From Loktanella salsilacus (GTDB lineage Bacteria > Pseudomonadota > Alphaproteobacteria > Rhodobacterales > Rhodobacteraceae): a stretch of DNA of 64,000 bases. Where the stretch lies: assembly GCF_900114485.1 (NCBI RefSeq), contig NZ_FOTF01000011.1, positions 62,001 to 126,000 on the forward strand. Direction: 5' to 3'. The translations under genes were made by a program, and so were the position numbers. The notes under the pieces are model-generated. The model was not told where the DNA came from, did not search any database, and saw only the letters and a program-made list of their open reading frames with translations. Below, piece after piece: positions 4,670-36,335 of the stretch. Every line of letters starts with the position of its first letter. The first letter of the stretch is position 1.

Positions 4670-5428
4670 TTAAGTCAGCGCTTGCCAGAGCAGACGGGTG
4701 CCGGTCGCCAGTAACAAGACATACGTCAGGCCGAAGAACACTCGGTCCGATACATAGTTGTGTGCCCGCACGCCGATATACGTGCCAGCGATGGCAAACG
4801 GCGCGAGGAACAGATCTGCCATTGCGGTCTGCGCGTTAAAGATCCCCAGAAAGAAATAGGGTACGAACTTCATCAGGTTGATCGCCCAGAAGACGATGAC
4901 TGTTGTGGCCTGATAGGTCGTCTTGGGCACGTTTTGGCCTAGCAGAAAGACCGCGACCGGGGGGCCTCCAGCGTGGCTGACGAAGCTGGTGAAACCGGCG
5001 GTCAGCCCTGTGACCCATGCCCAAGGGCGGGAGAATTTGAAGCTGCCGACGCGAATTATCCCGCGCGACCGCCCGACCTGCCAGATCACGAAGGCGATGC
5101 AGATCACCCCGATCAGCAGACGAAACGAATCTGCGTTTACAGCGGCGTATATAAACGCACCCAGCACGACGCCCGGCACCGCACCGATCAAGATATGCAG
5201 CGACGATGGGGCGTCCCACTTGCGCCAATAAGGCCGCAAGGATGTGACATCGATCAGCATCAGCAAGGGCAACATGATGCCCAGCGCCGCCCCCGGCGGC
5301 ACCACTAGCGCCAGCACGGCAGAGGCGGCAAAGGCGGCCCCAGACCCGAAGCCCGCCTTGGAAATAGCCGCAAATAGGACCGCCGGAATGGCAAGCGCGA
5401 AAAAAAGTAGATCGAAGGTGATCATCAT
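4670..5428 (-). CDS. TauE/SafE family membrane permease
   Basis: A 252-aa polytopic protein of the TauE/SafE (TSUP) family, proposed exporters of sulfite or sulfonate-derived anions. The paired repeats are visible as AISKAGFGSGAAFAASAVLALVVPP near the start and TGFTSFVSHAGGPPVAVFLL in the middle, with about eight membrane segments. The start is the double ATG at 5428/5425, after AAGG. It stands alone, opposite mdh. The substrate cannot be read from sequence; the sox cluster 20 kb away only makes a sulfur anion plausible. Confidence 0.88.
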   Translation of the reverse strand: MMITFDLLFFALAIPAVLFAAISKAGFGSGAAFAASAVLALVVPPGAALGIMLPLLMLIDVTSLRPYWRKWDAPSSLHILIGAVPGVVLGAFIYAAVNADSFRLLIGVICIAFVIWQVGRSRGIIRVGSFKFSRPWAWVTGLTAGFTSFVSHAGGPPVAVFLLGQNVPKTTYQATTVIVFWAINLMKFVPYFFLGIFNAQTAMADLFLAPFAIAGTYIGVRAHNYVSDRVFFGLTYVLLLATGTRLLWQALT

Positions 5429-5448
5429 CGAAACCTTATGAAAGATAG

Positions 5449-6543
<1,095 letters not shown>

Positions 6544-6570
6544 TCGCCGCATCAGGACATAATGCTTGAA

Positions 6571-6604
6571 AGCCGCGCCGCAGAATTTGCGGCGCGGCTT
6601 TTTC
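6571..6604 (+). terminator. Rho-independent terminator after mdh
   Basis: A perfect 12-bp stem, AGCCGCGCCGCA (6571-6582) with TGCGGCGCGGCT (6588-6599), a 5-nt loop, then TTTTTC. It separates mdh from the sucC promoter region. Confidence 0.92.
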
Positions 6605-6764
6605 AATTTTGCACGATGCGCCCTGCCCTTGTCAGCGATGGCTTGCGCAAAAGGTCCACGGGGGTGCGCACATTTCAGCGCAGGGTTGGCCGACCCATGA
6701 GTCGATTGCGCAGCTTGGCGGGCGGATTATTAAGAAATCGTCCACGCCTGCTGAAATAATCAGC

Positions 6765-23028: not shown

Positions 23029-24471
23029 TCAGCCGGGCGGCGCAACAAGGTCCCAAAAGCCAGATTTGCGGTGATGTTTCTGCCGAAGATGCGCCAGATA
23101 CGCGCTGTGATCCGGATAAGCGCCGTAGCTATCGATGCGCGCATCGCTCGACTGGCATTCCGCAAGGTGACGGGCTGCATGACGGTACCGCTTGGACTTT
23201 GCCCCGATAAGTGCGTCATCAATCATCGCGCGCCTGATGATCACGGCCGCAAGCGGGTGCTTTTCAGACAGCGTATCTGCGGCGGGGGTCAGCGCCTCGA
23301 ACTGGTCCCCGTCCAGATGTTTTGCGCGGTCCAGCACCAAGCGTGCCGCCCGGTCCAGCGCGGGCCATCCGGTTAGAAAATCGATCGCGACCTCTAGCTT
23401 GGCAAAGCGTTCGGCCAGATCCAGCGCCGCGTCCTCTGCGGCGATATCGTCAAAGTCGGGCAGCAACTTCAGGTGCCTGCGCAGGCTGTCTGCGTCCAGT
23501 GTCTGGGCAAAGCGCTGCCACAAATGATCCGTCAGCTCTGCCGTATTGCCCTGCTGTTTCAAGCCGTCCTCAAAGACCAGTTCTAGATCATGGCGGGCGG
23601 TGCCATGTGACGCCTTGCCGCCCTCGGCCATCGCGCGGCGAATAATCTGCATCGCCTCTTCAACGCGGCCAGCGTCCAGCAATCGGCGCGCCACTTGCGG
23701 CGCGATGGTGCCAAAGGTCAGCTGCTGGGGCGAATAGCGCGCGATATAGGCATCGACGTCGCCCTGTACGTCGGCAATGTCCGCAAGGATCACCGACCGG
23801 GTCAGGTCTTTGTTGCGCTGGATGCTGCCTGCTGCCGACCGCGACAGGCCAAAGCCGCTGTATCGCTCGACCTCTTCTGGCGTGGGCGCAGCATCGGCCC
23901 ATGCGTTGGCACCGGCTTTCAAGTGCTCTAGCCCGGTATTGCCCAAGATGGCAGAGGTCGCTGGGATGATGCCGTCGAACTCGCCGTAGCCGGCCCCCAC
24001 GACGGCGTCCAATATGCGGTCCGCAAGCACCAAAGGCGCGACGTTGATCCGCGGGGCGATGGCTGCGATGGCGTCGATGGCATCACGAAATACGTCGCCC
24101 ACGGCCCCGTTGCTGTCGTCGGTCCGTTCGTGAATGGACGGGGCCAGTTGGATGAGAGACCACAGCAGATCAAAGCCCTCGTCTGCGTTATACGGGACAA
24201 CGTTCGCGTTGATCATCTGCAACAGACCGTCCAGATCCTTGATCAGGGCCTTCTGTTTGCGCCAGTTCACAAAAGCCGTCGCGCGCCGCATCATGGCAAA
24301 GCGTTTGCGGATATCCACCGCGATATCCTGCGGGCCCTGCGCGGCACTAATCTCTAGCCGCGCGCGGCGCTGCAATGCGGCGCTTCCCTGCACCAGATCC
24401 ATCACCAAGGCCGCCAGCCGCTCTGCGCCCAGCTTTTCCAGATTGGTCGTATTCAGGGTCTTCTTGGTCAT
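23029..24471 (-). CDS. DUF6880 family protein
   Basis: A 480-aa all-helical protein of the DUF6880 group, common in Rhodobacteraceae, recognised from the lead KTLNTTNLEKLGAERLAALVMDL and FVNWRKQKALIKDLDGLLQ. The remainder is a series of helix pairs resembling TPR/HEAT repeats (for example GRVEEAMQIIRRAMAEG). No signal peptide, membrane segment or catalytic motif is visible. Function unknown. It lies 51 bp upstream of the hydrolase-OsmC gene, on the same strand. Confidence 0.78.
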   Translation of the reverse strand: MTKKTLNTTNLEKLGAERLAALVMDLVQGSAALQRRARLEISAAQGPQDIAVDIRKRFAMMRRATAFVNWRKQKALIKDLDGLLQMINANVVPYNADEGFDLLWSLIQLAPSIHERTDDSNGAVGDVFRDAIDAIAAIAPRINVAPLVLADRILDAVVGAGYGEFDGIIPATSAILGNTGLEHLKAGANAWADAAPTPEEVERYSGFGLSRSAAGSIQRNKDLTRSVILADIADVQGDVDAYIARYSPQQLTFGTIAPQVARRLLDAGRVEEAMQIIRRAMAEGGKASHGTARHDLELVFEDGLKQQGNTAELTDHLWQRFAQTLDADSLRRHLKLLPDFDDIAAEDAALDLAERFAKLEVAIDFLTGWPALDRAARLVLDRAKHLDGDQFEALTPAADTLSEKHPLAAVIIRRAMIDDALIGAKSKRYRHAARHLAECQSSDARIDSYGAYPDHSAYLAHLRQKHHRKSGFWDLVAPPG

Positions 24472-24653
24472 GGTCGCGGATATCGCATTCAGGAATTACC
24501 TGATGACACTGCCCCATCGCACCCAAAGCGACAATCAGGTTCCGCCCCGATCACGAAGTTGTCGCGATGCGGAAACAAAGGCGGAAGATCACCCAGATCT
24601 ATATTTTTCCGAATGGAATTGACCTATAAGTCCTTACGGTTGGAGGGCTGGGG

Positions 24654-25706
24654 ATGATGAACAACATGGGAGAGCCGACAGTTCTGGCGCTGCTGGGGCT
24701 GCTTGGCGGCATGGTCTTGGGGCTTGCGGCCCGGCTGGGCCGTTTTTGCACCCTCGGCGCGATCGAGGATGCCTTATACGCGCAAGATGACACGCGTTTG
24801 CGGATGTGGGGCATAGCGATTGGCACGGCGATCATCGGCAGTTTCGCCCTTGCGGCCACCGGGCTGCTGCAGCCTGAACAGACGATCTATCTAGCCTTTG
24901 CCTTTCAACCACTGGCCAGCATCCTTGGCGGATTGATGTTTGGCTACGGCATGGCGCTGGCGGGCAACTGCGGCTACGGCGCATTGGCGCGGCTCGGCGG
25001 CGGTGACCTGCGGTCCTTCGTCATCGTTTTGGTCATGGGATTGGCCGCATTTGCGACAATCTCTGGCCCGCTGGCTTACCTGCGTGTCGCGGCCTTTGCG
25101 CAGACGCCAGCCGACGCGGCACCGGGTATTGCGCAAGAACTGTCGGGACTAACAGGTCTGCCCGTCAACGGCATTGGCATCGCCATCGGGGCTGCCGTTC
25201 TGGCAATGACACTGTCTGCGGCCCCTTTCCGGTCAAACCTAAGGGCTGTCTTTTGGGGCGTCTGTGTCGGGCTGGCGATTGTGTCGGGCTGGGCGGGCAC
25301 GCAGTGGGTCGCGGTCGCAGGCTTTGCGCCGACAGTCGTGGAATCCCACACCTTTGCCGCCCCCTTGGGCGAGACCATGCTTTACGCGATGACGGCGTCC
25401 GGCAGTTCCTTGTCGTTCGGCATCGGCTCTGTCCTTGGTGTGCTGTTGGGGGCGTTCATCGGGTCGCTGGTCAAAGGCCATTTCCGCTGGGAAGCCTGCG
25501 AAGATCCGCGGGAATTGCGCCGCCAGATTGCCGGGGCCGCGTTGATGGGTGTTGGCGCAGTGCTGGCAATGGGATGCAGCATCGGTCAAGGTCTGTCCGC
25601 GATTTCAGTACTGGCCTATTCGGCGCCGCTGGTCATGGCTGGCATCTTTGCCGGGGCCGGGATCGGGCTACGCCAATTGATTACAGGCTTTGCCCGGATC
25701 GCCTAA
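24654..25706 (+). CDS. YeeE/YedE family thiosulfate-type permease
   Basis: A 350-aa polytopic membrane protein with two sulfur-transport (DUF395) repeats. The conserved cysteine loops are GRFCTLGAIEDAL, GNCGYGALARLGGGDLRSF and MGCSIGQGLSAISVLAYS, matching the thiosulfate-conducting cysteines of TsuA-type proteins. About ten membrane segments. Start at ATG 24654 (second ATG 24657) after GGAGGG. It stands next to the sox cluster, so import of thiosulfate or a related anion is a fair guess. The 182-bp upstream gap has a weak sox-like dyad at 24603-24619. Confidence 0.88.
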   Translation: MMNNMGEPTVLALLGLLGGMVLGLAARLGRFCTLGAIEDALYAQDDTRLRMWGIAIGTAIIGSFALAATGLLQPEQTIYLAFAFQPLASILGGLMFGYGMALAGNCGYGALARLGGGDLRSFVIVLVMGLAAFATISGPLAYLRVAAFAQTPADAAPGIAQELSGLTGLPVNGIGIAIGAAVLAMTLSAAPFRSNLRAVFWGVCVGLAIVSGWAGTQWVAVAGFAPTVVESHTFAAPLGETMLYAMTASGSSLSFGIGSVLGVLLGAFIGSLVKGHFRWEACEDPRELRRQIAGAALMGVGAVLAMGCSIGQGLSAISVLAYSAPLVMAGIFAGAGIGLRQLITGFARIA

Positions 25707-25739
25707 ATTCGCTTTGCCGATGACAGCCACCCTGCTATC

Positions 25740-25755
25740 ATTCAAAGATACGAAT
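25740..25755 (+). promoter_or_regulatory. Candidate SoxR operator before the MBL-fold gene
   Basis: ATTCAAAGATACGAAT fits ATTC-N8-GAAT and the longer pattern ATTCA-N4-T-N3-AAT shared by three sites inside the sox cluster. It ends 14 bp before the start codon. Confidence 0.5.
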
Positions 25756-25769
25756 ATGAGGGGGCGACC

Positions 25770-26690
25770 ATGAAGATTTCGCGGCGGACATTGATTTCGG
25801 GGGTGATTGCAGTGGCTGGCAGCGCGGTGCTGCCGCGTATCGCCTGGGCGAATACCACGCTTAGCCTGGGCGCGGGCATGCTTGATACGCTGAGCGATGG
25901 TCACCTGATGCTGCCGCGCAGTTTCGTGCTGGGCGATATCCCCGTGGCCGAGGCGGACGCCGTGCTGGAACCTTTCGGTCTGGCTGGCGCGGCTTCGCTG
26001 CTGCCAGATTGCAACCTGACGCTTTGGCGGGGTGACGATCGCACCGTGCTGTTCGACGCAGGCTCTGGCCCAGATTTCATGCCAACCGCCGGGCATCTGA
26101 TGGCCGCGATGGATGCGCTGGGGATCACGCCAGAGGACGTCACAGACGTTGTCTTTACCCATGGCCACCCTGACCATCTGTGGGGCGCGCTGGACGATTT
26201 CGACGAACCACTCTTTGCCAATGCCCAGCATCATATGGGGCAGATCGAGTGGGACTATTGGACCGACCCCGCCCTGCCCGATACGATTGCCGCCGACCGC
26301 CTGACCTTTGCCGTCGGGGCCGCCCGCAGGCTAGAGGTACTGGCCGAGGGCATCAATCTGTTCAACGATGGCGATGAGGTCCTGCCGGGTATCACTGCCC
26401 GCGCCACCCACGGGCATACCCCCGGTCATATGGCGTTTGAAATCGCAACAGAAGAAGAGACCGTGATGGTGCTGGGCGATTGTATTGCCAATCACCACAT
26501 CGCTTTTGTCCGGCCCGATTGGCCGAACGGGTCCGATCAGGACACCGCGCAAGGGGCCGAAACCCGCGCTGCGCTATTGGCGCAATTGGCAGATACAGGC
26601 ACCGTTTTTGCCGGGTTCCACTTACCCGCCCCCGGACTTGGCCGGGCGGTACGGGACGGGAATGCGTTCCGATTTGAGCCGCTCACCTAA
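25770..26690 (+). CDS. Exported metallo-beta-lactamase-fold hydrolase
   Basis: A 306-aa MBL-fold protein with a twin-arginine signal (MKISRRTLISGVIAVAGSA...WA) and the dinuclear metal motif VFTHGHPDHLWG, followed by HGHTPGHMAFE and LGDCIANHH. It is therefore a periplasmic metal hydrolase. SoxH-like proteins of this fold occur at the edges of sox clusters, and a SoxR-like site lies just upstream, so a role in sulfur compound turnover is plausible but not shown. It faces the DUF302-sox genes and is separated from them by a shared terminator. Confidence 0.87.
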   Translation: MKISRRTLISGVIAVAGSAVLPRIAWANTTLSLGAGMLDTLSDGHLMLPRSFVLGDIPVAEADAVLEPFGLAGAASLLPDCNLTLWRGDDRTVLFDAGSGPDFMPTAGHLMAAMDALGITPEDVTDVVFTHGHPDHLWGALDDFDEPLFANAQHHMGQIEWDYWTDPALPDTIAADRLTFAVGAARRLEVLAEGINLFNDGDEVLPGITARATHGHTPGHMAFEIATEEETVMVLGDCIANHHIAFVRPDWPNGSDQDTAQGAETRAALLAQLADTGTVFAGFHLPAPGLGRAVRDGNAFRFEPLT

Positions 26691-26699
26691 TGGACGCGG

Positions 26700-26737
26700 A
26701 AGGGGCCGCCGGCCTGACCGGCAGGGCGGCCCCTTTT
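26700..26737. terminator. Bidirectional terminator between the MBL-fold gene and the sox operon
   Basis: An 11-bp stem, AAGGGGCCGCC (26700-26710) with GGCGGCCCCTT (26725-26735), followed by TT on the plus strand and preceded by A residues. It separates the two convergent units. Confidence 0.82.
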
Positions 26738-26738
26738 C

Positions 26739-27164
26739 CTATTGCCCGGCGGCTTCGCGCGCGATGTCGTCCAGCAGCGCCTGCACGTCTTGCATGACGC
26801 CTTCGGGTTGGTTGCGGTAGCCGACTTGCACTTTACCGTCCTTGTCAGTGACGAACACGCCGTAGGGGCAATAGGCGATGTTGGCGGGATCAGCCTCCAT
26901 CACCTTGCGGGACAACGTGGCAGAGCAGAACATGAAGATATCGGCATTGTCATAGATCACGACGTCGCTGCCAACATCGGCGCGGGTCCGTTCCAGCATT
27001 TCCCCGACGTGGCTGGTCCAATCGATCACTAGCCCCCGCCCCACAATGGCAGTTTCAACACCAAAGGTCGCGTCGTCAAAGCTGCCGTCATAGTCATAGA
27101 CGGTGGCCTGTTGCGCCAGCGCGGGGCTGGCGACAAGGACAAAGGCGAGGGCAAATTTACGCAT
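26739..27164 (-). CDS. Exported DUF302 protein at the end of the sox operon
   Basis: A 141-aa protein with a signal peptide (MRKFALAFVLVASPALAQ) and a DUF302 domain, seen from VETAIVGRGLVIDWTSHVGEML and IYDNADIFMFCSATLSRKVM. Two cysteines, one in FMFCSA and one in IAYCPYGVFV, could form a periplasmic disulfide or bind a sulfur species. It is 29 bp downstream of soxD on the same strand and is last before a terminator. DUF302 has no firm function; co-transcription with sox suggests a part in sulfur handling. Confidence 0.85.
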   Translation of the reverse strand: MRKFALAFVLVASPALAQQATVYDYDGSFDDATFGVETAIVGRGLVIDWTSHVGEMLERTRADVGSDVVIYDNADIFMFCSATLSRKVMEADPANIAYCPYGVFVTDKDGKVQVGYRNQPEGVMQDVQALLDDIAREAAGQ

Positions 27165-27193
27165 GGGACTGGTCCTTTATGTGATGCGCTGCC

Positions 27194-28306
27194 TTATGGG
27201 CTGGCGCTTTGCAGATAGGCGATCAGTGCGTCGATATCGGCGGCGTCACGCACGCCGCGGAACGACATTTTGGTGCCGGGCATCGCGTCCTTGGGGTTGG
27301 CAAGGAAGGCGTGCAGCTTGTCGTTATCCCAAACCTCGCCCGCGGCCATCGCATCCTGAAACACGTCCGAATAGCGGAAATCAGGGATGGCACCGACGGT
27401 GCGGCCCATAATCGCATTCAGCTCTGGCCCGACGCGGTTTTGTGCCCCCTCGCCCACCATGTGACAGGATTTGCACTGGCGGAATGCTTTTTCGCCGTCC
27501 GCAATAAGGGCCGGATCAGCGGCAGCGACAACCACCGGGGCGGGCTCTGCTGCTGGTTCAGGTTCGGCTGCTGGCTCTGCTGCGGCTTCGGTGACAGGCT
27601 CGGCAGCAGGGGCTTCAACAGCGGCTGCTTCTGCGGCGGCCTCGTTTGCCTTGGCGGCCGTTTCCTCTGGCGTCACATCGACCACGCTGGCGTGCATCGT
27701 AATCTCGACGCTGTCTTTGCAGTTCTCCATGCAGGCTTCAGCCATGAAGATCGGAAACTCCGTCTCTGCCCGGTCGTCGTCGATAAAGTTATCGACGTTC
27801 GGCATGGACACTTCGGTGAAGTTTTCGTTCGACAGGGTGAAATCATCATCCACCAGATCGTTCAGATAAAGGATATAGGCCGTCAGCGCATAAGTTTCAT
27901 CATCACTGAGCGAGGCTGCGTGGCCAAAAGGCATGGCGCGGTTCACGTAGTCGAACACGGTCGACAAATAGGGCCAGTAGCTGCCCACAGTCTTGACCGG
28001 ATCCTTGTTTTCCAACGTACCACCACCGCCTGCCAACACAGGCCAGCGACCGACAGCCTCGCCAAAGTCGCCATGGCAGACAGAGCAGTTTTCGACGTAG
28101 ATATCTTCGCCCGTCAGCACATCGCCGCTACCGACAGGCAGGCCCATGCCATCGGGGCGTATGTCGGTGTTCCAAGCAGCGACTTCTTCGGGCATCGCAG
28201 CGCGGCCGATGCCATATCCGCCGTCCTTTGACGGTGCCACGTCTTGCGCGGCGGCGGCGGTGGCAAAGGTCAGTAGGGCTGCAGCGAGATTAAGAGATTT
28301 CGACAT
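27194..28306 (-). CDS. soxD: Sulfur dehydrogenase cytochrome subunit SoxD
   Basis: A 370-aa diheme c-type cytochrome, electron acceptor of the SoxCD sulfane dehydrogenase. It has a signal peptide (MSKSLNLAAALLTFATAAAAQ), a first CSVCH heme site near residue 85, an Ala/Glu/Pro-rich spacer of about 50 residues, and a second CKSCH site in the C-terminal cytochrome domain with MPGTKMSFRGV as the axial Met region. ATG 28306 overlaps soxC by 17 bp; longer in-frame starts run through soxC and lack a signal. Its presence means thiosulfate sulfur can be fully oxidised to sulfate. Confidence 0.93.
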   Translation of the reverse strand: MSKSLNLAAALLTFATAAAAQDVAPSKDGGYGIGRAAMPEEVAAWNTDIRPDGMGLPVGSGDVLTGEDIYVENCSVCHGDFGEAVGRWPVLAGGGGTLENKDPVKTVGSYWPYLSTVFDYVNRAMPFGHAASLSDDETYALTAYILYLNDLVDDDFTLSNENFTEVSMPNVDNFIDDDRAETEFPIFMAEACMENCKDSVEITMHASVVDVTPEETAAKANEAAAEAAAVEAPAAEPVTEAAAEPAAEPEPAAEPAPVVVAAADPALIADGEKAFRQCKSCHMVGEGAQNRVGPELNAIMGRTVGAIPDFRYSDVFQDAMAAGEVWDNDKLHAFLANPKDAMPGTKMSFRGVRDAADIDALIAYLQSASP

Positions 28307-29555
28307 TTTCAGCCTTTCCGTCAGCATCGATGGCCCAAGTCTGGATACCATTATTGTGGTAGATTGAATTTTCGCCGCGGATTTTGCGCAGCGCGTCCTT
28401 GGTTGGCTGCACGTATCCGGTGCTGTCATGCGCCCGGCTTTGCAGCAGCAGCGGCGCGCCGTCCCAGTCCATTTCATAATAGAAACGATGCATCGATTTA
28501 TCGAAGCTAGGGCCAGACATGCGGGCCTTGTGCCAGTTCATGCCGCCATCGGTCGTCACGTCCACCTGCGGGATCGTACCGCGGCCGGACCATGCGACGC
28601 CTGTGATGACCAGCGGGCCTTTGCCATGGGTGATCGGGGCTTGCGGGCTCGGCGATGTGATGACGGATTTTGCGTCCATTTCCCACGTGAAGCGACGCGC
28701 GACGCCGTTGGCCAACAGGTCGGTATATTTGCTGGTTTCCTCGCGGGCGTGCCAAGGCTGGTCGCCGACTTCGATCCGGCGGATCCACTTGACCCACATA
28801 TTGCCTTCCCAACCCGGCACGACCAGCCGCAGGGGATAGCCTTGCTCGGGGCGCAGCGCCTCGCCGTTCATTTTGAAGGCGACCAGGCAGTCATCCAGCG
28901 CTTTTTCCATCGGGATAGAGCGGTTCATGCCAGCGGCGTCAGCGCCTTCGACCATGATCCACTTCCCCTCGGTCTTCACGCCGGCCTCTTCCAGCAGCAG
29001 CCGCAGGGGCACGCCGGTGTATTGCACGTTGTGGATCATGCCGTGGGTAAACTGGCAGCCGTTCAGCTGCGCGCCAGCCCATTCCATGCCGGAGTTGGCG
29101 GCGCATTCCAGGAAATAGACGTGGTTTTCGCGGGGGAAGCGCATCAGGTCTTCCATCGTGAAGACCAGTTCTTTGTCCACTAAACCGTTGATCATCAAGC
29201 GATGCTCTGACGGCTCAATCACGGCGACGCCGCCGTGGTGACGTTCAAAGCACAACCCATTCGGTGTGATGATCCCGTCTAGCGCGTGCAGCGGCGTAAA
29301 GTTGACCGAGCTGACGGCGTCAGCAGTCAACCACGGCACGTCGCGGCGGATGACGTCAGCCTCGAACTTTGACGGCACACCGTAGGGCGCGGCATCAACG
29401 CCAGCGCCAAGGTCTTGGCGCCACGGCTGCGGGTTTACGATCAGCGGATCGGCGGTTTGCGCCGACAACCGCGATCCGGCCAGCGCACCGCCGACAGCGG
29501 CAGCCCCTGTCAGAAAATTGCGGCGGGATGGCTTCAAGCCCTTGTAGTGTTCCAT
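28290..29555 (-). CDS. soxC: Sulfane dehydrogenase molybdenum subunit SoxC
   Basis: A 421-aa periplasmic sulfite-oxidase-type molybdoprotein. A Tat signal, SRRNFLTGAAAVGGALAGS, covers residues 9-30; the Mo-coordinating Cys is in YFLECAANSGMEW; LRLVVPGWEGNMWVKWIRRI is the dimerisation/substrate region. In SoxCD it oxidises the SoxY-bound sulfane sulfur. Start ATG 29555 follows GAAGGAGAGAGAC; an ATG 7 codons earlier has no such leader. Confidence 0.95.
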   Translation of the reverse strand: MEHYKGLKPSRRNFLTGAAAVGGALAGSRLSAQTADPLIVNPQPWRQDLGAGVDAAPYGVPSKFEADVIRRDVPWLTADAVSSVNFTPLHALDGIITPNGLCFERHHGGVAVIEPSEHRLMINGLVDKELVFTMEDLMRFPRENHVYFLECAANSGMEWAGAQLNGCQFTHGMIHNVQYTGVPLRLLLEEAGVKTEGKWIMVEGADAAGMNRSIPMEKALDDCLVAFKMNGEALRPEQGYPLRLVVPGWEGNMWVKWIRRIEVGDQPWHAREETSKYTDLLANGVARRFTWEMDAKSVITSPSPQAPITHGKGPLVITGVAWSGRGTIPQVDVTTDGGMNWHKARMSGPSFDKSMHRFYYEMDWDGAPLLLQSRAHDSTGYVQPTKDALRKIRGENSIYHNNGIQTWAIDADGKAENVEIS

Positions 29556-29582
29556 GTCTCTCTCCTTCTCGGCCAACGGGCC

Positions 29583-30014
29583 CTAGGGCCGCACGTAGGC
29601 GTATCCATCTTCTTGCAGGGTGATCAGTTGCACGACGCCAGAGGGGACGACCGTCGCCTCTGACATCAGGGGAATGTCGTGGCCCGCCTTTTTCTCCATC
29701 CCGGCCAATGTGTTGGCACAGGCAGCGAAGGTCAGGCCGTCATTTGCCAAGGTCATCGCGGCGATGCGGTCGGCGACGGGGCTTTCCCCTTCGACTAGCA
29801 TCATCAGGCCAGGGCCGTAGGTAACGACCTCGACCGTGACGGTATCGCCCTGCTCTGCGTAATAGCTGATCAGGTTGCCGACATTGTTCAGGGCCATGTT
29901 CATGACCTGCGGATCGTTCTCGTCGACGTGGACGGCGACCTTGTGGTTGACCCCTTCCGCCATGGCAAAGGTGGCGGTGATGGCCAGCAATCCTGCGAGT
30001 GCAAAGGTCTTCAT
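29583..30014 (-). CDS. Exported DsrE-family protein between soxB and soxC
   Basis: A 143-aa protein with a signal peptide (MKTFALAGLLAITATFAMA) and a DsrE-like Rossmann fold (VAVHVDENDPQVMNMALNNVGNL). The Cys in LTFAACANTLAGMEKK is at the position where DsrE proteins carry their sulfur-binding cysteine. DsrE relatives in the cytoplasm relay persulfide sulfur; this one is periplasmic, made with SoxB and SoxC, with 9 bp to soxB and 27 bp to soxC. A sulfur-carrier or sulfur-scavenging role is likely, but this is inference. Confidence 0.86.
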   Translation of the reverse strand: MKTFALAGLLAITATFAMAEGVNHKVAVHVDENDPQVMNMALNNVGNLISYYAEQGDTVTVEVVTYGPGLMMLVEGESPVADRIAAMTLANDGLTFAACANTLAGMEKKAGHDIPLMSEATVVPSGVVQLITLQEDGYAYVRP

Positions 30015-30023
30015 GATGTTCCC

Positions 30024-31724
30024 CTATTCAACAACGACGACGTTGGTGTTGTCGGGCACCGACACGGTGCCCTGTGATGCGATGTAATCCTCGACCACAT
30101 CCCAGATCTGCGGCCCTTCGGTATCCTCGTTGACCGAGGCCCAGCCGGCGACGACATATGGCGTGGCGGCGTCAATCGCCTCGCCCGTTGCCAAAAGCGT
30201 CAGGTCGGAAATCCGCTCTCCAATAGGTTTGGTGATGTCGATCTTATAACCAATGCCGCCGACGCGAACCATGTCGCCGCCCTGCTGATAGTAGGGGTCG
30301 GGGTTGAACAGGTTGTCGGCCACGTCTTCCATGATCAGCTTCAGCGTCTCGCCGGTCATTTCGGACCGGTAGGCCTTGCCGTAGGTCATCGAAGTGACGT
30401 TCCAGATGTCTTCGCGCGTGATATCAGAACCGGGCAAGATCGACGGCCCCCAGCGTACGCCGGGCGACAAGGCGATCTGCGCATCGCGCTGGTCGAGCAG
30501 AGCGTTGCAGATCAGGTCGTCCCATGTGCCGTTAAAATTGCCCCGCCGATACAGCAAAGAGGTGTCGTCGGTGCGCCCGATGACTTCCTCTAGCCGGTCT
30601 TTGAACGGCGCGCGTTCGGCGTCGATGGCTTTTGCCACTTCTGCGTCAGGGGTGATGACGTCAGAGAAGATCGGGATCAGCTTGTGACGGAAACCCATCA
30701 TGCGGCCATCGCGCACATCCAGATCAACCCGGCTGACGAATTTCCCGTTCGAACCAGAGGCGACGATGATCGTCTCGCCGACCAGCACAGGTTCTGGCAG
30801 CGCGTCGTGGGTGTGCCCAGACAGGATGACGTCGATGCCGGTGACATTTGCGGCCATCTTTTTGTCCACGTCAAAGCCGTTGTGCGACAGGCAGACGACC
30901 AGTTCGGCACCCATGCCGCGCACCTCGTTGACCATGTCCTGCATATGCGCGTCGCGGATACCAAAGCTGTATTCGGGGAACATCCAGCCGGGGTTGGCGA
31001 TGGGCATATAGGGGAAGGCCTGACCGATCACGGCGACCTTTACGCCGCCGCGCTCAAAGAATTCGTAGGGTTTGAAATCCTCGCTGGGCTCGTCCCATTC
31101 GGCGTCAAAGATGTTCTGCCCCATGGCTGCAAACGGCAAATCCTGGACGATTTCGCGCACCCGGTCGGACCCAAGGGTAAATTCCCAGTGGAAGGTCATG
31201 GCGTCAGGCTTGAGCAGGTTCATGACGTTGACCATGTCCTGGCCTTGCGTCTCGTAACACGTCATGGAGCCATGCCATGTGTCGCCGCCATCCAGCAGGA
31301 TCGCATCCGGGCGGTCGGCGCGGATAGCGTTGATAACCGTGGCGACCCGGTCAAGGCCGCCCATTTTGCCATAGCCCTGCGCCAGCGCGCTAAAGTCGCC
31401 GGACGACAGCGCATAGTGCGACGCGGACCCATCATCGATACCATAAAGCTTGCGGAAGTCGGCGCCGGTGATGTGAGGCACCTCTCCCTTGTTCGGGCCG
31501 ACGCCAAGGTTCACAGACGGTTCGCGAAAATAGATCGGCTTGAGCTGCGCGTGAATATCAGTGACGTGGATTAGGGACACATTGCCGTAGGTATCGAACT
31601 GCAACAACTGGTCCTGCGTCAGCGCCTGCTGCGCGGCCAGACGGCCCCAGCGGCCAAACCCGGACGCGCCGATGATGGCGGATGCCGCCACACTGGCCTG
31701 CAGGAAATCACGACGAGAGATCAT
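30024..31724 (-). CDS. soxB: Thiosulfohydrolase SoxB
   Basis: A 566-aa manganese-dependent 5'-nucleotidase-family hydrolase that removes the sulfonate group as sulfate from SoxY-bound intermediates. A Tat signal (MISRRDFLQASVAASAIIG) is followed by the metal motifs VTDIHAQLKPIYFREP, LDGGDTWHGS and LSHNGFDVDKKMA...LSGHTHDAL. Full length. It is separated from soxA by a hairpin and its own upstream region with an ATTC-N8-GAAT site, so it may be the first gene of a second sox transcript, soxB-dsrE-soxCD-DUF302. Confidence 0.96.
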   Translation of the reverse strand: MISRRDFLQASVAASAIIGASGFGRWGRLAAQQALTQDQLLQFDTYGNVSLIHVTDIHAQLKPIYFREPSVNLGVGPNKGEVPHITGADFRKLYGIDDGSASHYALSSGDFSALAQGYGKMGGLDRVATVINAIRADRPDAILLDGGDTWHGSMTCYETQGQDMVNVMNLLKPDAMTFHWEFTLGSDRVREIVQDLPFAAMGQNIFDAEWDEPSEDFKPYEFFERGGVKVAVIGQAFPYMPIANPGWMFPEYSFGIRDAHMQDMVNEVRGMGAELVVCLSHNGFDVDKKMAANVTGIDVILSGHTHDALPEPVLVGETIIVASGSNGKFVSRVDLDVRDGRMMGFRHKLIPIFSDVITPDAEVAKAIDAERAPFKDRLEEVIGRTDDTSLLYRRGNFNGTWDDLICNALLDQRDAQIALSPGVRWGPSILPGSDITREDIWNVTSMTYGKAYRSEMTGETLKLIMEDVADNLFNPDPYYQQGGDMVRVGGIGYKIDITKPIGERISDLTLLATGEAIDAATPYVVAGWASVNEDTEGPQIWDVVEDYIASQGTVSVPDNTNVVVVE

Positions 31725-31747
31725 GGGCGCGGTCCTTTGGTAAACTT

Positions 31748-31763
31748 ATTCACGATTTGGAAT
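31748..31763 (+). promoter_or_regulatory. Candidate SoxR operator in the soxA-soxB gap
   Basis: ATTCACGATTTGGAAT, 24 bp before the soxB start codon. Its first six bases and the last three match the soxS-soxV site, and it is a perfect ATTC-N8-GAAT dyad. Confidence 0.55.
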
Positions 31764-31780
31764 ATAATGAGAGGCAGAAA

Positions 31781-31811
31781 AGCCCGCGCATGGGAAAACC
31801 ACGCGCGGGCT
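31781..31811 (-). terminator. Terminator or attenuator between soxA and soxB
   Basis: A 13-bp stem with one mismatch, AGCCCGCGCATGG (31781-31793) and CCACGCGCGGGCT (31799-31811). On the minus strand it is followed by TTTT. It would end the soxVWXYZA transcript or reduce read-through into soxB. Confidence 0.75.
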
Positions 31812-31817
31812 TGTTTG

Positions 31818-32660
31818 TTACGGGCGAACTGACGGCGCTTCGACCGACAGGCCGTTACCGCGCGATGCAACATAAAGCTCTAGCGCGACGAATTCGGCGC
31901 TGCCTGGGCTATAGGTTTCCGCACGCGTGTCGCGGATACAGCCCTTAAAGCGGTTGTGCGTCTGCACCAAACCGTCGTTTTTCAGACGGAACGCCGGGAA
32001 GCCGTTGATCTGGCCTTGGCTCAGGTGGTCAGCGCGGATGTAGTTGTCATAGTTTTCTTCATGGCAGGACGCGCAGGACAACTCTAGCTGGCCATAGCGC
32101 GTGTAATACATCTCTTCGCCCTGCTTCCAGGTGTCAGCCACGGGGCCATCAATGGCCACGTTGACCGGCATGCCGCGTGATTGCATGGAAATCAGCGCCT
32201 CTGCCCCGGTCATGTCAGAGCCGTCGTATTTCCACGCCTCGGCCCCCATGTTCTCGGTGCGGCAGTCGTTGATCTGCATCGCAAGGGTGCGCACTTCGCC
32301 TGCGTCCTCGTTCCATTTCGGATAGACCGCGCGCACGCCAAGCATGCTTTGCTCTACATCTTCGTGGCAGGACGCGCAGGATTTGCCTTCGGTGCCGTCC
32401 ACCGTTGACCATTGCACGATGGCTTTATCGACGGCGATGATGGCCGGGTTTTCGAAGTCGTCCATCTGCATTTCCTGCAGCGACGCGTCGCGGAAACGCC
32501 AGCCAGAGTAGATTGTGCGCAGGCCCGAAATATAGTCGGGCGCGGGCGCTTCGGTCACGATTTCGATGTCGCCGTTTGTGACCAGCTGGTGGTCATCTTG
32601 GGCCACAGCACCGGTCGCAACCAATGCGATGGCGGCGGTCAAAAGTCCTGTTGTTCTCAT
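31818..32660 (-). CDS. soxA: Sulfur oxidation diheme cytochrome SoxA
   Basis: A 280-aa periplasmic cytochrome; with SoxX it couples thiosulfate oxidatively to the SoxY cysteine. Signal peptide MRTTGLLTAAIALVATGAVAQ. Two heme sites, CASCHEDVEQS and CASCHEENYDN, fit the diheme type; the later KGCIRDTRAETY holds the Cys that becomes the persulfide heme ligand. Length fits. It lies 33 bp after soxZ and before a hairpin. Confidence 0.95.
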   Translation of the reverse strand: MRTTGLLTAAIALVATGAVAQDDHQLVTNGDIEIVTEAPAPDYISGLRTIYSGWRFRDASLQEMQMDDFENPAIIAVDKAIVQWSTVDGTEGKSCASCHEDVEQSMLGVRAVYPKWNEDAGEVRTLAMQINDCRTENMGAEAWKYDGSDMTGAEALISMQSRGMPVNVAIDGPVADTWKQGEEMYYTRYGQLELSCASCHEENYDNYIRADHLSQGQINGFPAFRLKNDGLVQTHNRFKGCIRDTRAETYSPGSAEFVALELYVASRGNGLSVEAPSVRP

Positions 32661-32693
32661 TGTCGTCCCTCCCCTGTCGTCCTCCGCTTCGGG

Positions 32694-33023
32694 TTACCCG
32701 ATCGCGATGTCCTGGCTTTCGGTGTAGACGGAGCCGTCGTCGTCATACCATGTGAAGGTGAATGTCCCGGCCTCTGGCACGGTGGCCTCGAACTCGAAAT
32801 AAGGGTTGGTGGAAATCGCCGGTTCCATCGTCACGTCGATGACGCTCTGGCCGTTGAATTCACAGGTAAAGCGATTGATGATCGAGCGCGGAATCAGGTT
32901 GCCCGCGTCATCCTTGCGCTGCCCGGATTCCATTGGGTGCGAAATCAGGGTCTTCAGCGTGATCGCCTCGCCTGCGGCCGCTGTTTTGGGTACGCGGACC
33001 TTGGGTTTTACGTTGTCAGCCAT
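32694..33023 (-). CDS. soxZ: Sulfur carrier complex subunit SoxZ
   Basis: A 109-aa immunoglobulin-like subunit that pairs with SoxY; it lacks a signal peptide and is expected to be co-exported with it. Seen from VKPKVRVPKTAAAGEAITLKTLISHPMESG and the C-terminal TFTWYDDDGSVYT. Located 17 bp after soxY. Confidence 0.95.
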   Translation of the reverse strand: MADNVKPKVRVPKTAAAGEAITLKTLISHPMESGQRKDDAGNLIPRSIINRFTCEFNGQSVIDVTMEPAISTNPYFEFEATVPEAGTFTFTWYDDDGSVYTESQDIAIG

Positions 33024-33040
33024 TGTTCATATCCTCCTGA

Positions 33041-33460
33041 TCAGCCGCCGCAGCCGCCGATGGTAACCTTCACTTCTTGCGTGGCCTGAACGAAGCTGCC
33101 GTCCGCCATTTTCGCAATCGCCATCACGTTCTGCGTCTTGGCCAAGCGGATCCGGGTGGACGCCGTTTGCGACGCAGCCAGCGGGCCGAAGTTAAAGATC
33201 GCGGCGTCTGGCGTCGGGTTGCCCGTGGCCAGCAGCATGATTGACACAGCGCCGGGTGCGCTGACTTCGACCGGGACGGTGTTGCCGTTTTCCGCGATCT
33301 CTGGCGCGGTCAGCGTCAGACCTTCGGTTCCCATCTCGGCACCGCCGGTAAAGGCTGCGATCGAGTCTTCGGACGCGTCAGCAAAAGCGCGAAACGGCAT
33401 GGCCGCTGCGACGGACGCGCCAAGCGCCATCATAAATGTTTGTCTACGTGTGATTGTCAT
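33041..33460 (-). CDS. soxY: Sulfur carrier protein SoxY
   Basis: A 139-aa carrier with a Tat signal (TRRQTFMMALGASVAAAMPF) and the invariant C-terminal swinging arm GGCGG, whose Cys carries the sulfur substrate through the SoxAX, SoxB and SoxCD steps. It lies between soxX and soxZ in the usual order. Confidence 0.96.
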   Translation of the reverse strand: MTITRRQTFMMALGASVAAAMPFRAFADASEDSIAAFTGGAEMGTEGLTLTAPEIAENGNTVPVEVSAPGAVSIMLLATGNPTPDAAIFNFGPLAASQTASTRIRLAKTQNVMAIAKMADGSFVQATQEVKVTIGGCGG

Positions 33461-33486
33461 CGGATGACCTCTTCCTTTGGGCCGCG

Positions 33487-33957
33487 TTATTCCTTGAGCG
33501 TCGTCAGATAGGCGACGACGTCTTCGATCTGTTGTGCGCTCAGCAGTGGCGGCAGTGGTTCTGTGCCTGCCTTGCCAGTGTAGGCGTCGCCGGGGCGGAT
33601 ATAGCCGTTGACCTTGTAAAAGGCGGGCATGACCGTTTCCGGGAACGTCATCTTGGCGTTTGCCACGATGCCGCGCAGCTGGGATTCATCCCAGCGATCC
33701 GCTGCACCGTCCAAAGACGGGCCGACATTGCCTTGAAACGTAGCCTCGAGCGCGGTGACCTGATGACAGGCCACACAGTTCCCGATGCTGCGTTCTGACA
33801 TCACCTCTTTGCCGGCGGCCGCATCGCCCGGAACACCGGACAAGGACGCGGCAATTGCACCGTATTCATCAAAGCTGACGTCGAGTGGTGCCACCTCTTG
33901 CGCGGCAGCAGTCGTAGCAAGGCATACCCCTGCGATGGCTGTAAGCGTGCGGTTCAT
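33487..33957 (-). CDS. soxX: Sulfur oxidation cytochrome SoxX
   Basis: A 156-aa monoheme cytochrome, partner of SoxA. Signal peptide MNRTLTAIAGVCLATTAAAQ, heme site NCVACHQVTALE, and a later Met region PETVMPAFYK. ATG 33957 follows AGGGGAGGTGTC; upstream in-frame starts add a non-signal extension over the promoter. It opens the soxXYZA part of the cluster behind a sox-type operator. Confidence 0.94.
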   Translation of the reverse strand: MNRTLTAIAGVCLATTAAAQEVAPLDVSFDEYGAIAASLSGVPGDAAAGKEVMSERSIGNCVACHQVTALEATFQGNVGPSLDGAADRWDESQLRGIVANAKMTFPETVMPAFYKVNGYIRPGDAYTGKAGTEPLPPLLSAQQIEDVVAYLTTLKE

Positions 33958-34029
33958 GACACCTCCCCTGCATGTTCGCATTCCGTTGCATACAGGGTAG
34001 ACCGGTGTGACAGCATAACGCAATTACAA

Positions 34030-34045
34030 ATTACAATTCTTGAAT
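34030..34045 (-). promoter_or_regulatory. Candidate SoxR operator in the soxW-soxX gap
   Basis: Minus-strand ATTCAAGAATTGTAAT, fitting ATTCA-N4-T-N3-AAT, within an AT-rich 122-bp gap, 72 bp before the soxX start. In Pseudaminobacter, SoxR is reported to bind in this same gap and between soxS and soxV. Confidence 0.55.
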
Positions 34046-34079
34046 GTTTCTGCAGTGCGGCATACTCAAGTCGCTGGGA

Positions 34080-34643
34080 TCATTCAGGAAAGGCACCCGC
34101 CTCGATCATGCGGGCATGGTATTTTTGGAACGGCTCGTCGCTGTCGTAGCCATGATTCTTGACCCAGTTCAGCATATTGAAGGTCGTAAATTTGCCAAAA
34201 GCACCCGGCACGGTGGCGACAGCGGCCTGCACGGCGGTAACATCGTCCGGGACAGATTCGGGCATAAACATCATGGTTGGGGTGAACATCATATTCCACC
34301 GCGCGATCATGTCCTTTTCCGGCAGCACGGTGCCGTCAAAGTCCGTGACATCAAGATCGCCAAACATGTTGAGCTGCACCACATAATAGTCGTCGGTCAG
34401 CAGCTTTTCGATGACCGGCAGCACGAAAACCTCCTCGTGCATTTTGGTGCAATAGATGCAGCCGCGTTGCTCGATGATGACCATCAGGCGCTTGCCCTCG
34501 GCACCCGCGTCGGCCAAATCCTCGCGCAGGTCCTTGAAGGTGTCGATGATCCACGGTGCCTTGTGCAGCCCATCGTCGCCAACCGTGGCGGACATGACGG
34601 GCGCAGCAACAAGAGCCAGCGCAAGCGTGAGTGATTTCAGCAT
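34080..34643 (-). CDS. soxW: Periplasmic thioredoxin SoxW
   Basis: A 187-aa thioredoxin-like protein with a signal peptide (MLKSLTLALALVAAPVMSA) and the redox site EQRGCIYCTKMHEEV. FTPTMMFMP contains the cis-Pro. It receives electrons from SoxV and keeps SoxY cysteine reduced. It lies 12 bp after soxV. Confidence 0.93.
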   Translation of the reverse strand: MLKSLTLALALVAAPVMSATVGDDGLHKAPWIIDTFKDLREDLADAGAEGKRLMVIIEQRGCIYCTKMHEEVFVLPVIEKLLTDDYYVVQLNMFGDLDVTDFDGTVLPEKDMIARWNMMFTPTMMFMPESVPDDVTAVQAAVATVPGAFGKFTTFNMLNWVKNHGYDSDEPFQKYHARMIEAGAFPE

Positions 34644-34655
34644 CTTATCCTCCCT

Positions 34656-35393
34656 TTAGCCAAGAGATCCGGCACCAGGAATGGTGTCGATCATCCATTG
34701 GGCAATGACATTTATGGAATTGGTAACGATCAAAATGGCGAAGATAATCAGCATGATCCCCATCGCCTTTTCAACATAACCCATGGCGGCGCGGTGCCGT
34801 TGCACCCAGCCTAGAAAGGGCTTTGCAAATAGCGCGGCCACCACAAATGGGGCAGTCATGCCGACACCGTAAACGGCCAGCAACAACGCGCCGCGCCAGA
34901 TGTCACCCATGCCGCTGGCGATCATCAGGATCGCCGCCAACGCTGGCCCGACGCAGGGCGTCCAGCCGAAACCAAAGGCAAGGCCCATAACATAGGCCCC
35001 GACAACAGTCGTCGGCTCGACTTTGCTTTCAACGCGCGCTTCGCGGTACAAAAACGGGATGCGGACCACACCAAGGAAATGCAGACCAAACACGAACAGC
35101 ACCGCCGCCGCGACATAGCTAAGAGGCTGCTTCCACTGACCAAAGGCTTGGCCTACCGCCGTTGCCCCCATGCCAAGCAGCATAAAAATCGTCGTGACGC
35201 CCAGCGCAAAGAACACGGCCTGCAGCACCAATCGGCCCTGCGCACCGGGGGCGATTTCATCGTCGCCGCGCAGTTCTGACATGGAAATTCCGGCCATGTA
35301 GCACAGATAGAACGGCACCATCGGTAAGATGCAGGGCGTAAAGAACGACAGCAAGCCTGCGAATGCGGCCCCAAGGTATGTCATATCGAACAC
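34656..35393 (-). CDS. soxV: CcdA-type thiol-electron transporter SoxV
   Basis: A 245-aa six-segment membrane protein of the CcdA/DsbD family that moves electrons from cytoplasmic thioredoxin to SoxW. The paired redox cysteines are in SFFTPCILPMVPFYLCYMAG and GWTPCVGPALAAIL. I favour GTG 35393, because AAGGAA lies 7 nt before it; ATG 35384 is too far from that site, and GTG 35417 would lie within the candidate operator. Divergent from soxS. Confidence 0.9.
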   Translation of the reverse strand: MFDMTYLGAAFAGLLSFFTPCILPMVPFYLCYMAGISMSELRGDDEIAPGAQGRLVLQAVFFALGVTTIFMLLGMGATAVGQAFGQWKQPLSYVAAAVLFVFGLHFLGVVRIPFLYREARVESKVEPTTVVGAYVMGLAFGFGWTPCVGPALAAILMIASGMGDIWRGALLLAVYGVGMTAPFVVAALFAKPFLGWVQRHRAAMGYVEKAMGIMLIIFAILIVTNSINVIAQWMIDTIPGAGSLG

Positions 35394-35411
35394 GCGTACG
35401 TTCCTTGAGTT

Positions 35412-35427
35412 ATTCACATATTCAAAT
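35412..35427 (+). promoter_or_regulatory. Candidate SoxR operator between soxV and soxS
   Basis: ATTCACATATTCAAAT in the AT-rich divergent promoter region, so one site could control both soxV and soxS. It shares TTATTCAC with the soxB site. Confidence 0.55.
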
Positions 35428-35475
35428 TATGAGTTATGTAATGCATTCCGTCAATCGCCGTGGAAGGTTGCGACT

Positions 35476-35856
35476 ATGATCACACTTCGCACTGCGCTTG
35501 GCGCGATGATGCTCTTGGCCGGCGCCCCCGCCGCGGCGCAGGACACCGGACCCGCGATGGAATTGGTGATGGTCGAACAGGCTGGCTGCCAGTGGTGCGT
35601 CCGGTGGAACGCCGAAATTGGGCCGATCTATCCCAAAACGCCAGAAGCCGCTTTAGCACCACTGCGGCGCATTGATCTGCGCGACCCGGTGCCGGACGAT
35701 CTGACCCTTGCCCGGCCCGTGGTCTTTACGCCGACCTTTGTGCTGATCGCCGCGGGCACGGAAGTGAACCGTATCGAAGGCTATCCGGGGCCTGATTTTT
35801 TCTGGGGTCTGCTGGACAGCATGTTCGCGGACGCTGGCAGTGAAGTGATCAATTAG
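35476..35856 (+). CDS. soxS: Periplasmic thioredoxin-like SoxS
   Basis: A 126-aa protein with a signal peptide (MITLRTALGAMMLLAGAPAAA) and a CxxC site, EQAGCQWCVRWNAEI, followed by VVFTPTFVLI with the cis-Pro. SoxS is reported to reactivate SoxYZ. ATG 35476 follows GAAGG. The longer in-frame form would start within soxV. Confidence 0.91.
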   Translation: MITLRTALGAMMLLAGAPAAAQDTGPAMELVMVEQAGCQWCVRWNAEIGPIYPKTPEAALAPLRRIDLRDPVPDDLTLARPVVFTPTFVLIAAGTEVNRIEGYPGPDFFWGLLDSMFADAGSEVIN

Positions 35857-35928
35857 ACGCATGACGCGGCGATCTTCATGCACTAAAGGTCTTGTGACCA
35901 AAAATGACTTAGAACAATAGGCTGGCCT

Positions 35929-36264
35929 GTGGGTATTCCGATCATTGATGACAGCATCCGGGGTGAAGACCTCGACAAGATGATGAAGAACGCCACCGAG
36001 GCGGCGAATTTTCTTAAGGCGATCAGCCACGAGGGGCGGCTGATGATCCTGTGTCACTTGGCCAGCGGCGAGAAATCCGTGACGGAACTAGAGGCGTTGC
36101 TCTCTGCCCGGCAGGCCGCTGTGTCGCAACAGCTGGCACGCTTGCGGCTAGAAGGATTCGTCGTACCGCGCCGTGACGGCAAAACGATTTTCTATAGCCT
36201 TGCAGACGACCGGTCCCGTCAGGTGATCGATCTGGTCTACGATCTGTTCTGCAGCCGCGACTAG
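35929..36264 (+). CDS. soxR: ArsR-family sulfur-responsive repressor SoxR
   Basis: A 111-aa winged-helix repressor. The recognition helix is in SARQAAVSQQLARLRLEGFV, and the wing in RRDGKTIFYSLADD. Cys42 (LMILCHLASG) and Cys108 (DLFCSRD) fall where Rhodobacter SqrR has its Cys41/Cys107 pair, which forms a polysulfide bridge, so it probably senses sulfane sulfur and leaves the DNA. GTG 35929 is the likely start. It follows soxS by 72 bp and probably binds the four ATTC-N8-(G)AAT sites. Confidence 0.92.
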   Translation: MGIPIIDDSIRGEDLDKMMKNATEAANFLKAISHEGRLMILCHLASGEKSVTELEALLSARQAAVSQQLARLRLEGFVVPRRDGKTIFYSLADDRSRQVIDLVYDLFCSRD

Positions 36265-36335
36265 GCACTGCCCATTCCGGCAGCGTCAGTGTCTGCAAAA
36301 CCTTGGCTTGGCCTGTCCCAGCGCGCATCGCGCGG

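Follow-up and report, generated by a model that had tools for sequence, protein, structure and literature searches.

The sox cluster of Loktanella salsilacus and its four sites

We analysed a stretch of 64,000 nucleotides of Loktanella salsilacus (contig NZ_FOTF01000011.1, positions 62,001 to 126,000), here called the window, which carries a cluster of sox genes for sulfur oxidation together with soxR, the gene of an ArsR-family repressor. Four putative SoxR-type operators of 22 bp lie in this cluster: upstream of soxG (25737..25758, core 25740-25755), in the soxA/soxB gap (31745..31766, core 31748-31763), in the soxW/soxX gap (34027..34048, core 34030-34045) and between soxV and soxS (35409..35430, core 35412-35427). 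The computations show these sites, their conservation and where they lie with respect to promoter-like and terminator-like sequences. We regard it as highly probable that they are operators through which SoxR, a predicted sensor of sulfane sulfur, represses four promoter regions.

The cluster starts with a soxT1-type YeeE/YedE transporter gene (24654..25706, + strand; PF04143), which adjoins soxG, the gene of an MBL-fold hydrolase (25770..26690, +; PF00753) with a twin-arginine start read by eye. A DUF302 protein gene (26739-27164), matched in many relatives' loci, adjoins soxD (27194..28306, -), identified by its position after soxC and by cytochrome c matches. Further along the minus strand lie soxC (28290..29555; TIGR04555, 628 bits against a cut-off of 420), a DsrE-family gene between soxB and soxC (29583..30014; PF02635), soxB (30024..31724; PF00149 and PF02872), soxA (31818..32660; tblastn to annotated soxA genes), soxZ, soxY and soxX (32694..33957; ordered as in relatives and in the annotated Paracoccus record), and soxW and soxV (34080..35393; thioredoxin-like and DsbD_TM domains), with GTG 35393 probably the soxV start, judged by eye from relatives. 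On the plus strand follow soxS (35476..35856), an ortholog by position and tblastn with no Pfam match, and soxR (35929..36264). The DsrE-family gene was matched in L036 and L153 and is reported as orf2 in some Sulfitobacter (PMC11034169).

The original prediction had placed one shared pattern in four gaps, and the pattern ATTCANNNNTNNNAAT indeed has exactly four matches in the window, at 25740-25755 (+), 31748-31763 (+), 34030-34045 (-) and 35412-35427 (+). Dinucleotide shuffles gave a mean of 0.29 matches and a maximum of 2, and none of the 100 shuffles reached 4. Since ATTCANNNNTNNNAAT was defined after the fact, the decisive test is an independent matrix derived from relatives.

An operator model from related sox loci

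A SoxB search returned at least 588 relatives, and the best 80 were kept as loci L024-L103, with SoxB identities to the window protein of 71-84%. Genes in these loci were positioned by tblastn with 15 window proteins, and we cut the soxS/soxV (72/80), soxW/soxX (72/80) and soxA/soxB (78/80) gaps and the region upstream of the MBL gene (37/80), the remaining loci having an unmatched gene or an unfitting spacing. All 80 loci were picked around soxB, and the counts cover these loci rather than whole genomes. The strict form ATTC-N8-GAAT was found in 54/72 soxW/soxX gaps, 23/37 MBL regions and 20/78 soxA/soxB gaps, and in none of the regions upstream of soxT (0/71) or soxR (0/72).

Blind motif discovery, by expectation-maximisation from random starts on each gap separately, returned ATTCAcAtATTcaaAT (ATTCACATATTCAAAT) from soxS/soxV, ATTC-N8-GAAT from the MBL region and, once coding bases were trimmed, ATTCAAANATGCGCAT from soxA/soxB, where the untrimmed run converged on the SoxB coding start; soxW/soxX yielded a promoter plus a half-site, not the full palindrome. 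The soxS/soxV matrix scored above the 99th percentile of shuffles in 52/72 soxW/soxX, 36/78 soxA/soxB and 18/37 MBL regions, against 1/71 and 2/72 in the soxT and soxR control regions. For the MBL matrix the corresponding counts were 34/72 (soxS/soxV), 66/72 (soxW/soxX) and 49/78 (soxA/soxB), against 5/71 (soxT) and 1/72 (soxR). The original prediction had named motif discovery on sox upstream regions as one of its checks and absence of the motif from orthologous gaps as one of its two refutations: the matrix of one gap predicts the other gaps with soxT and soxR controls near zero, and the motif is present in the orthologous gaps of relatives and congeners. These results support one operator family that occupies all four gaps and is conserved in orthologous gaps.

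A symmetric 22-bp matrix (approximately cAnATTCAnAT-ATnTGAATnTg) was then pooled from 225 sites of relatives, the window being excluded (soxS/soxV 69/72, soxW/soxX 72/72, soxA/soxB 56/78, MBL 28/37). Its four best scores in the window are the four sites: 18.2 bits upstream of soxG, 15.4 at soxA/soxB, 15.3 at soxV/soxS and 15.0 at soxW/soxX. The runners-up are a match inside soxW (9.5) and one that overlaps the soxV/soxS site (9.1), and the control regions upstream of soxT and soxR score 0.1 and 1.6. In 20 Mb simulated with an order-2 Markov model of the window, 9 matches reached 15 bits, so that 0.029 are expected per 64 kb.

Across the 80 loci (1.59 Mb), 226 matches scored at least 11, of which 221 lie within 260 bp upstream of a query gene and 219 of these belong to sox genes or soxG. 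By gene they precede soxX (73), soxB (56), soxS (36), the MBL gene (29), soxV (12) and soxC (11), the remainder being DUF302 (2), soxR (1), soxY (1) and other places (5). The training gaps contribute in-sample counts; the soxC matches and the scarcity of matches elsewhere are out-of-sample. Operators scoring at least 9 were present at soxS/soxV in 61 of the 80 loci, at soxW/soxX in 72, at soxA/soxB in 57, before the MBL gene in 28 and at soxB/soxC in 11. Within sox loci of 20 kb, operators are concentrated at sox promoters.

Among nine genomes of the genus, our own included, four hold SoxB at E<=1e-100, and the three congeneric sox loci (19-20 kb; L153 with a SoxB identity of 94%, L154 and L155 with 67%) each have exactly four matches of at least 9, in the same four gaps, the soxG site at the same position in all three. 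In these gaps a locus on a Ruegeria plasmid (L105) scores 9.8, 16.8, 16.7 and 14.9, and Paracoccus ferrooxidans (L104), in which soxG closely follows soxF, scores 11.3 at soxS/soxV and 11.4 at soxW/soxX. The operators at soxB and soxG are kept across genera while their flanks vary. The sequence CATAATTTGAATATGTGAAT of the soxV/soxS site has a letter-identical copy in L048.

In our own genome (4.13 Mb), ATTCANNNNTNNNAAT occurs at 23 places, one of which is matched on both strands, making 24 matches when the strands are counted separately; when these preselected places are ranked by matrix score, the four sox sites are among the top five. The top-scoring place is a palindrome, CAAATTCATATTTGTGAATTTT (L116:5264-5285, contig C22 near 185763; 24.3 bits), which precedes a choice-of-anchor F autotransporter gene and follows a gene similar to the dioxygenase portion of Blh. 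Of 120 family genomes, only our own has this autotransporter at E<=1e-40.

Promoters, the soxA/soxB hairpin and soxG

Promoter-like sequences accompany three of the operators. Facing soxV, TTGACG-N17-CATAAT (35426..35454, -) agrees at 10 of 12 positions, is the best of 9 found between 24400 and 36300 (4.5 expected) and overlaps the operator with its -10 element; many soxS/soxV gaps of relatives likewise have a TTGAC promoter followed by a CATAATnTGAATATGTGAAT-like sequence. Facing soxG, TTGCCG-N16-TATCAT (25714..25741, +; 9/12, with TG before the -10) also overlaps the operator with its -10. A putative soxX promoter, TTGCGT-N18-TACCCT (33994..34023, -), was read by eye just downstream of the operator and is unlisted by the promoter scan; the bases TTgTTGCgt...cTA.ggTa beside this operator are kept in 70 loci aligned on it. 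The interquartile distance from operator to gene start is 30-40 bp at soxB, 27-38 at soxS/soxV and 21-28 at soxG.

At soxA/soxB, a terminator-like hairpin follows soxA (31780..31812, -; fold -28.2 kcal/mol, z -6.44, 0/200 shuffles as good), ends in TTTTCT and is directly followed by the operator. It qualifies by the criterion used for the relatives and is unlisted by a simple terminator scan. Among 78 loci, 54 have both hairpin and operator, 14 the hairpin only, 3 the operator only and 7 neither (p 0.003), and in the 54 the operator starts 8-15 bases past the start of the T-run. An operator between soxB and soxC was observed in 11 of the 80 loci (L028, L039, L040, L046, L053, L063, L064, L076, L079, L090 and L092), 8 of which are without a soxA/soxB operator. 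The two positions tend to exclude each other (73 loci: both 3, soxA/soxB alone 52, soxB/soxC alone 8, none 10; p 0.0003), this p value and that of the hairpin pairing both ignoring relatedness. At soxB/soxC, terminator and operator showed no significant association (p 0.16).

The original prediction had described the MBL gene as encoding a periplasmic hydrolase and had placed it outside the sox cluster. Its protein is 55.6% identical over 302 residues to the first MBL protein after soxF in Paracoccus ferrooxidans, where the order is soxABC, two cytochrome genes, a flavoprotein gene and two MBL genes, and has no match to the second. The record names neither MBL gene; we take them to be soxG and soxH, in that order. 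This similarity identifies the window gene as soxG, an established sox gene, and the earlier placement outside the cluster was wrong; no soxH match was found in the 64-kb window. Both soxG and soxH are placed with the sox genes of Sulfitobacter (PMC11034169, PMC10221251), and their products are described as thiosulfate-induced periplasmic zinc metallohydrolases in PMC10221251.

The soxG operator goes with gene orientation: it is present in 28/32 loci with soxG opposite to soxB and in 0/5 with the two co-directional (Fisher p 0.0003). Of 149 family genomes 75, among them our own, have a soxG match at E<=1e-40, and among soxG-like genes of 49-59% identity, our own excluded, 33/48 (19/29 and 14/19) carry an operator of at least 11 upstream. 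As an intended negative control, none of which was expected to score, we took 20 of 29 weaker MBL matches (30-41% identity); nine of the 20 scored at least 11 (difference from the soxG-like genes p 0.10), so that the control failed and became a lead. No other query sox protein matched in any of the 11 distant-MBL neighbourhoods of 12 kb that were covered, nine with and two without an operator. The nine with it (L195-L203) encode SoxG-like MBL hydrolases of 36-41% identity, away from sox genes, with the operator upstream near positions 5150-6650. Among the 29 genomes with a weaker MBL match, 27 hold a SoxR/SqrR-like protein at E<=1e-15, many of them two.

The transporter before soxG is 62% identical to the Ruegeria SoxT encoded beside soxR and 33% to the other Ruegeria SoxT; overall it shares 62% and 50% with SoxT1 proteins against 33-34% with SoxT2. 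The gene is usually found after soxR but here sits at the end of the cluster opposite to it, and L153 has the same order. The SoxT1 label is thus given on sequence alone, the soxSRT arrangement being absent here.

SoxR as the candidate repressor and the competing explanations

The soxR product (HTH_5, PF01022, 40.4 bits against a cut-off of 22) is identical to PDB 6o8k at 65/104 residues, its Cys42 and Cys108 align with the cysteines of that structure, and its recognition helix of 16 residues, RQAAVSQQLARLRLEG, is identical. The entry is titled only 'ArsR family', and we take it to be SqrR of R. capsulatus. With the BigR model NF040642, SoxR scores 95.9-96.3 bits, below the curated cut-off of 155, which marks it as a relative of BigR and not BigR proper; the runner-up in our own genome scores 37.2. 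SoxR is the likely binder because its helix is that of 6o8k and ATTC-N8-GAAT is the published SqrR site, and we strongly infer that it binds the four operators.

The motif family as such, which the original prediction had presented as a family for SoxR, is not new: ATTC-N8-GAAT is the deduced SqrR site, present near the ygaV promoter and absent at katG (PMC9774250); other SqrR papers searched for the motif gave none. Promoters that are regulated by SoxR and lie between soxS and soxV are reported to drive soxSR and soxVW (PMC5748708). SoxR of Hyphomicrobium is 53% identical to SqrR and is released from DNA by polysulfide (PMC10451225), and SoxT is described as a signal route to SoxR (PMC11582611). 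Among the papers listed, no title, abstract opening or passage covered gave a SoxR motif for roseobacter sox gaps, which falls short of proving its absence from the literature. The kind of motif is known, and the operators at soxA/soxB and soxG are a solid extension of the known regulon. The predicted extension to soxB-dsrE-soxCD and the MBL gene is supported by a conserved operator family at both; the position of the latter outside the cluster is not.

When oxidisable sulfur is absent, a SoxR dimer would sit on each operator, over the -10 at soxV and soxG and just upstream of the -35 at soxX, and would repress the promoter regions of soxSR/soxVW, soxXYZA, soxB-dsrE-soxCD and soxG. With thiosulfate or another sulfur source, sulfane sulfur, probably arriving via SoxT1, would bridge Cys42 and Cys108, and the bridged SoxR would leave the DNA, allowing the pathway to be transcribed. 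The soxA/soxB site would serve a separate unit, the hairpin ending soxXYZA and the operator following directly. We thus infer SoxR binding, repression, a sulfur response and promoter activity in the window; the whole pathway is probably under a single sulfur-sensing switch.

Several observations weigh against this reading. The strict ATTC-N8-GAAT is met at 25740 and 31748 and departed from at 34030 and 35412, and it occurs in only 2/72 soxS/soxV gaps of relatives, which indicates that the operator family is degenerate. The species compared are akin, hence the locus counts are not independent, and a sequence-profile search of our own genome was insensitive, finding one palindromic place and missing the four sox sites. 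Paracoccus ferrooxidans (L104) scores -8.6 at soxA/soxB and -16.5 before soxG, and soxA/soxB scores fall below 9 in L092, L095, L096 and L103, outside the roseobacter-like loci. Among soxG-like genes 15/48 lack an operator of at least 11, which 9/20 of the distant MBL controls carry. Many relatives have a second SoxR/SqrR-like protein, which could be the binder there, and YgaV, a relative, also binds the katG promoter, which is without such a site (PMC9774250).

That the four matches arose by chance after a pattern was chosen by eye has next to no probability. The pattern was defined after the fact, and a search for the published form with a gap of N8 or N9 gave the window no excess (3 matches, the third at 55414, against 2.03 expected), but a matrix built from relatives only ranks the same four sites first and they are kept in three congeners, which contradicts chance. 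It is very improbable that only the soxS/soxV and soxW/soxX sites work, those at soxA/soxB and soxG being inert leftovers. The Pseudaminobacter SoxR is reported to bind the soxW/soxX region. The published SoxR work covered here concerns soxS/soxV (PMC5748708), and Paracoccus ferrooxidans has just the soxS/soxV and soxW/soxX sites; against this stand the conservation of the soxB and soxG operators across genera amid variable flanks, the orientation rule at soxG and the alternative position at soxB/soxC.

The sites could also be real operators bound mainly by another SqrR/BigR-type regulator of the ArsR family, given that SqrR is reported on the same motif and many relatives hold two SoxR/SqrR-like proteins. 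We consider this improbable, as only SoxR scores strongly on the BigR model here and soxR lies beside the soxV/soxS operator. Somewhat less remote, though still unlikely, is that the soxA/soxB site has no promoter role and that SoxR bound after the hairpin is instead a roadblock for polymerase reading through from soxX. The spacing of 8-15 bases after the T-run start in 54 loci fits such a role, and the promoter scan of 24400-36300 listed none at soxA/soxB, which also tells against a promoter under SoxR there; the distance from operator to start at soxB, however, is similar to those at soxS/soxV and soxG, and the hairpin alone should stop most read-through.

With SoxR repression of four promoter regions as the preferred reading, the data suggest that the sox cluster consists of modules with their own operators and is not a single transcription unit. 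A wider proposal, which we offer tentatively and rate somewhat below even, is that in roseobacter-like bacteria SoxR divides sulfur oxidation among modules that are repressed separately and that the metallohydrolase arm reaches beyond the sox cluster through orphan SoxG-like hydrolases. The modules would be substrate loading (soxXYZA), hydrolysis and dehydrogenation (with an internal operator before soxB or soxC by lineage) and the periplasmic metallohydrolase arm; as the same operator precedes genes of orphan SoxG-like hydrolases in other genera, the persulfide response would then generally include these uncharacterised enzymes. For soxG, for which we found no stated function beyond 'metallohydrolase', the tie to a sulfane-sulfur switch is a reason to test it in thiosulfate or persulfide chemistry. 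A motif noticed by eye has been turned into a tested operator model, usable to predict SoxR targets genome by genome.

Among known systems, the operator of SqrR in Rhodobacter capsulatus, which has also been noted for E. coli YgaV, shares its core and spacing with the window sites, but two of the four keep only AAT on one side, and the targets are sox operons and soxG. In contrast to the SoxG/SoxH metallohydrolases described elsewhere, soxG here stands next to soxT1 as a separate unit with a putative operator to itself. The SoxR proteins of Paracoccus pantotrophus, Pseudaminobacter salicylatoxidans and Hyphomicrobium denitrificans belong to the same repressor family; the Hyphomicrobium probes are described with inverted and direct repeats, with no motif given in the passages covered. 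Paracoccus pantotrophus and Pseudaminobacter salicylatoxidans, like the window, have an operator between the divergent soxS and soxV. What sets the window apart from those SoxR systems is two extra putative operators, one behind a terminator-like hairpin in the soxA/soxB gap and one at soxG.

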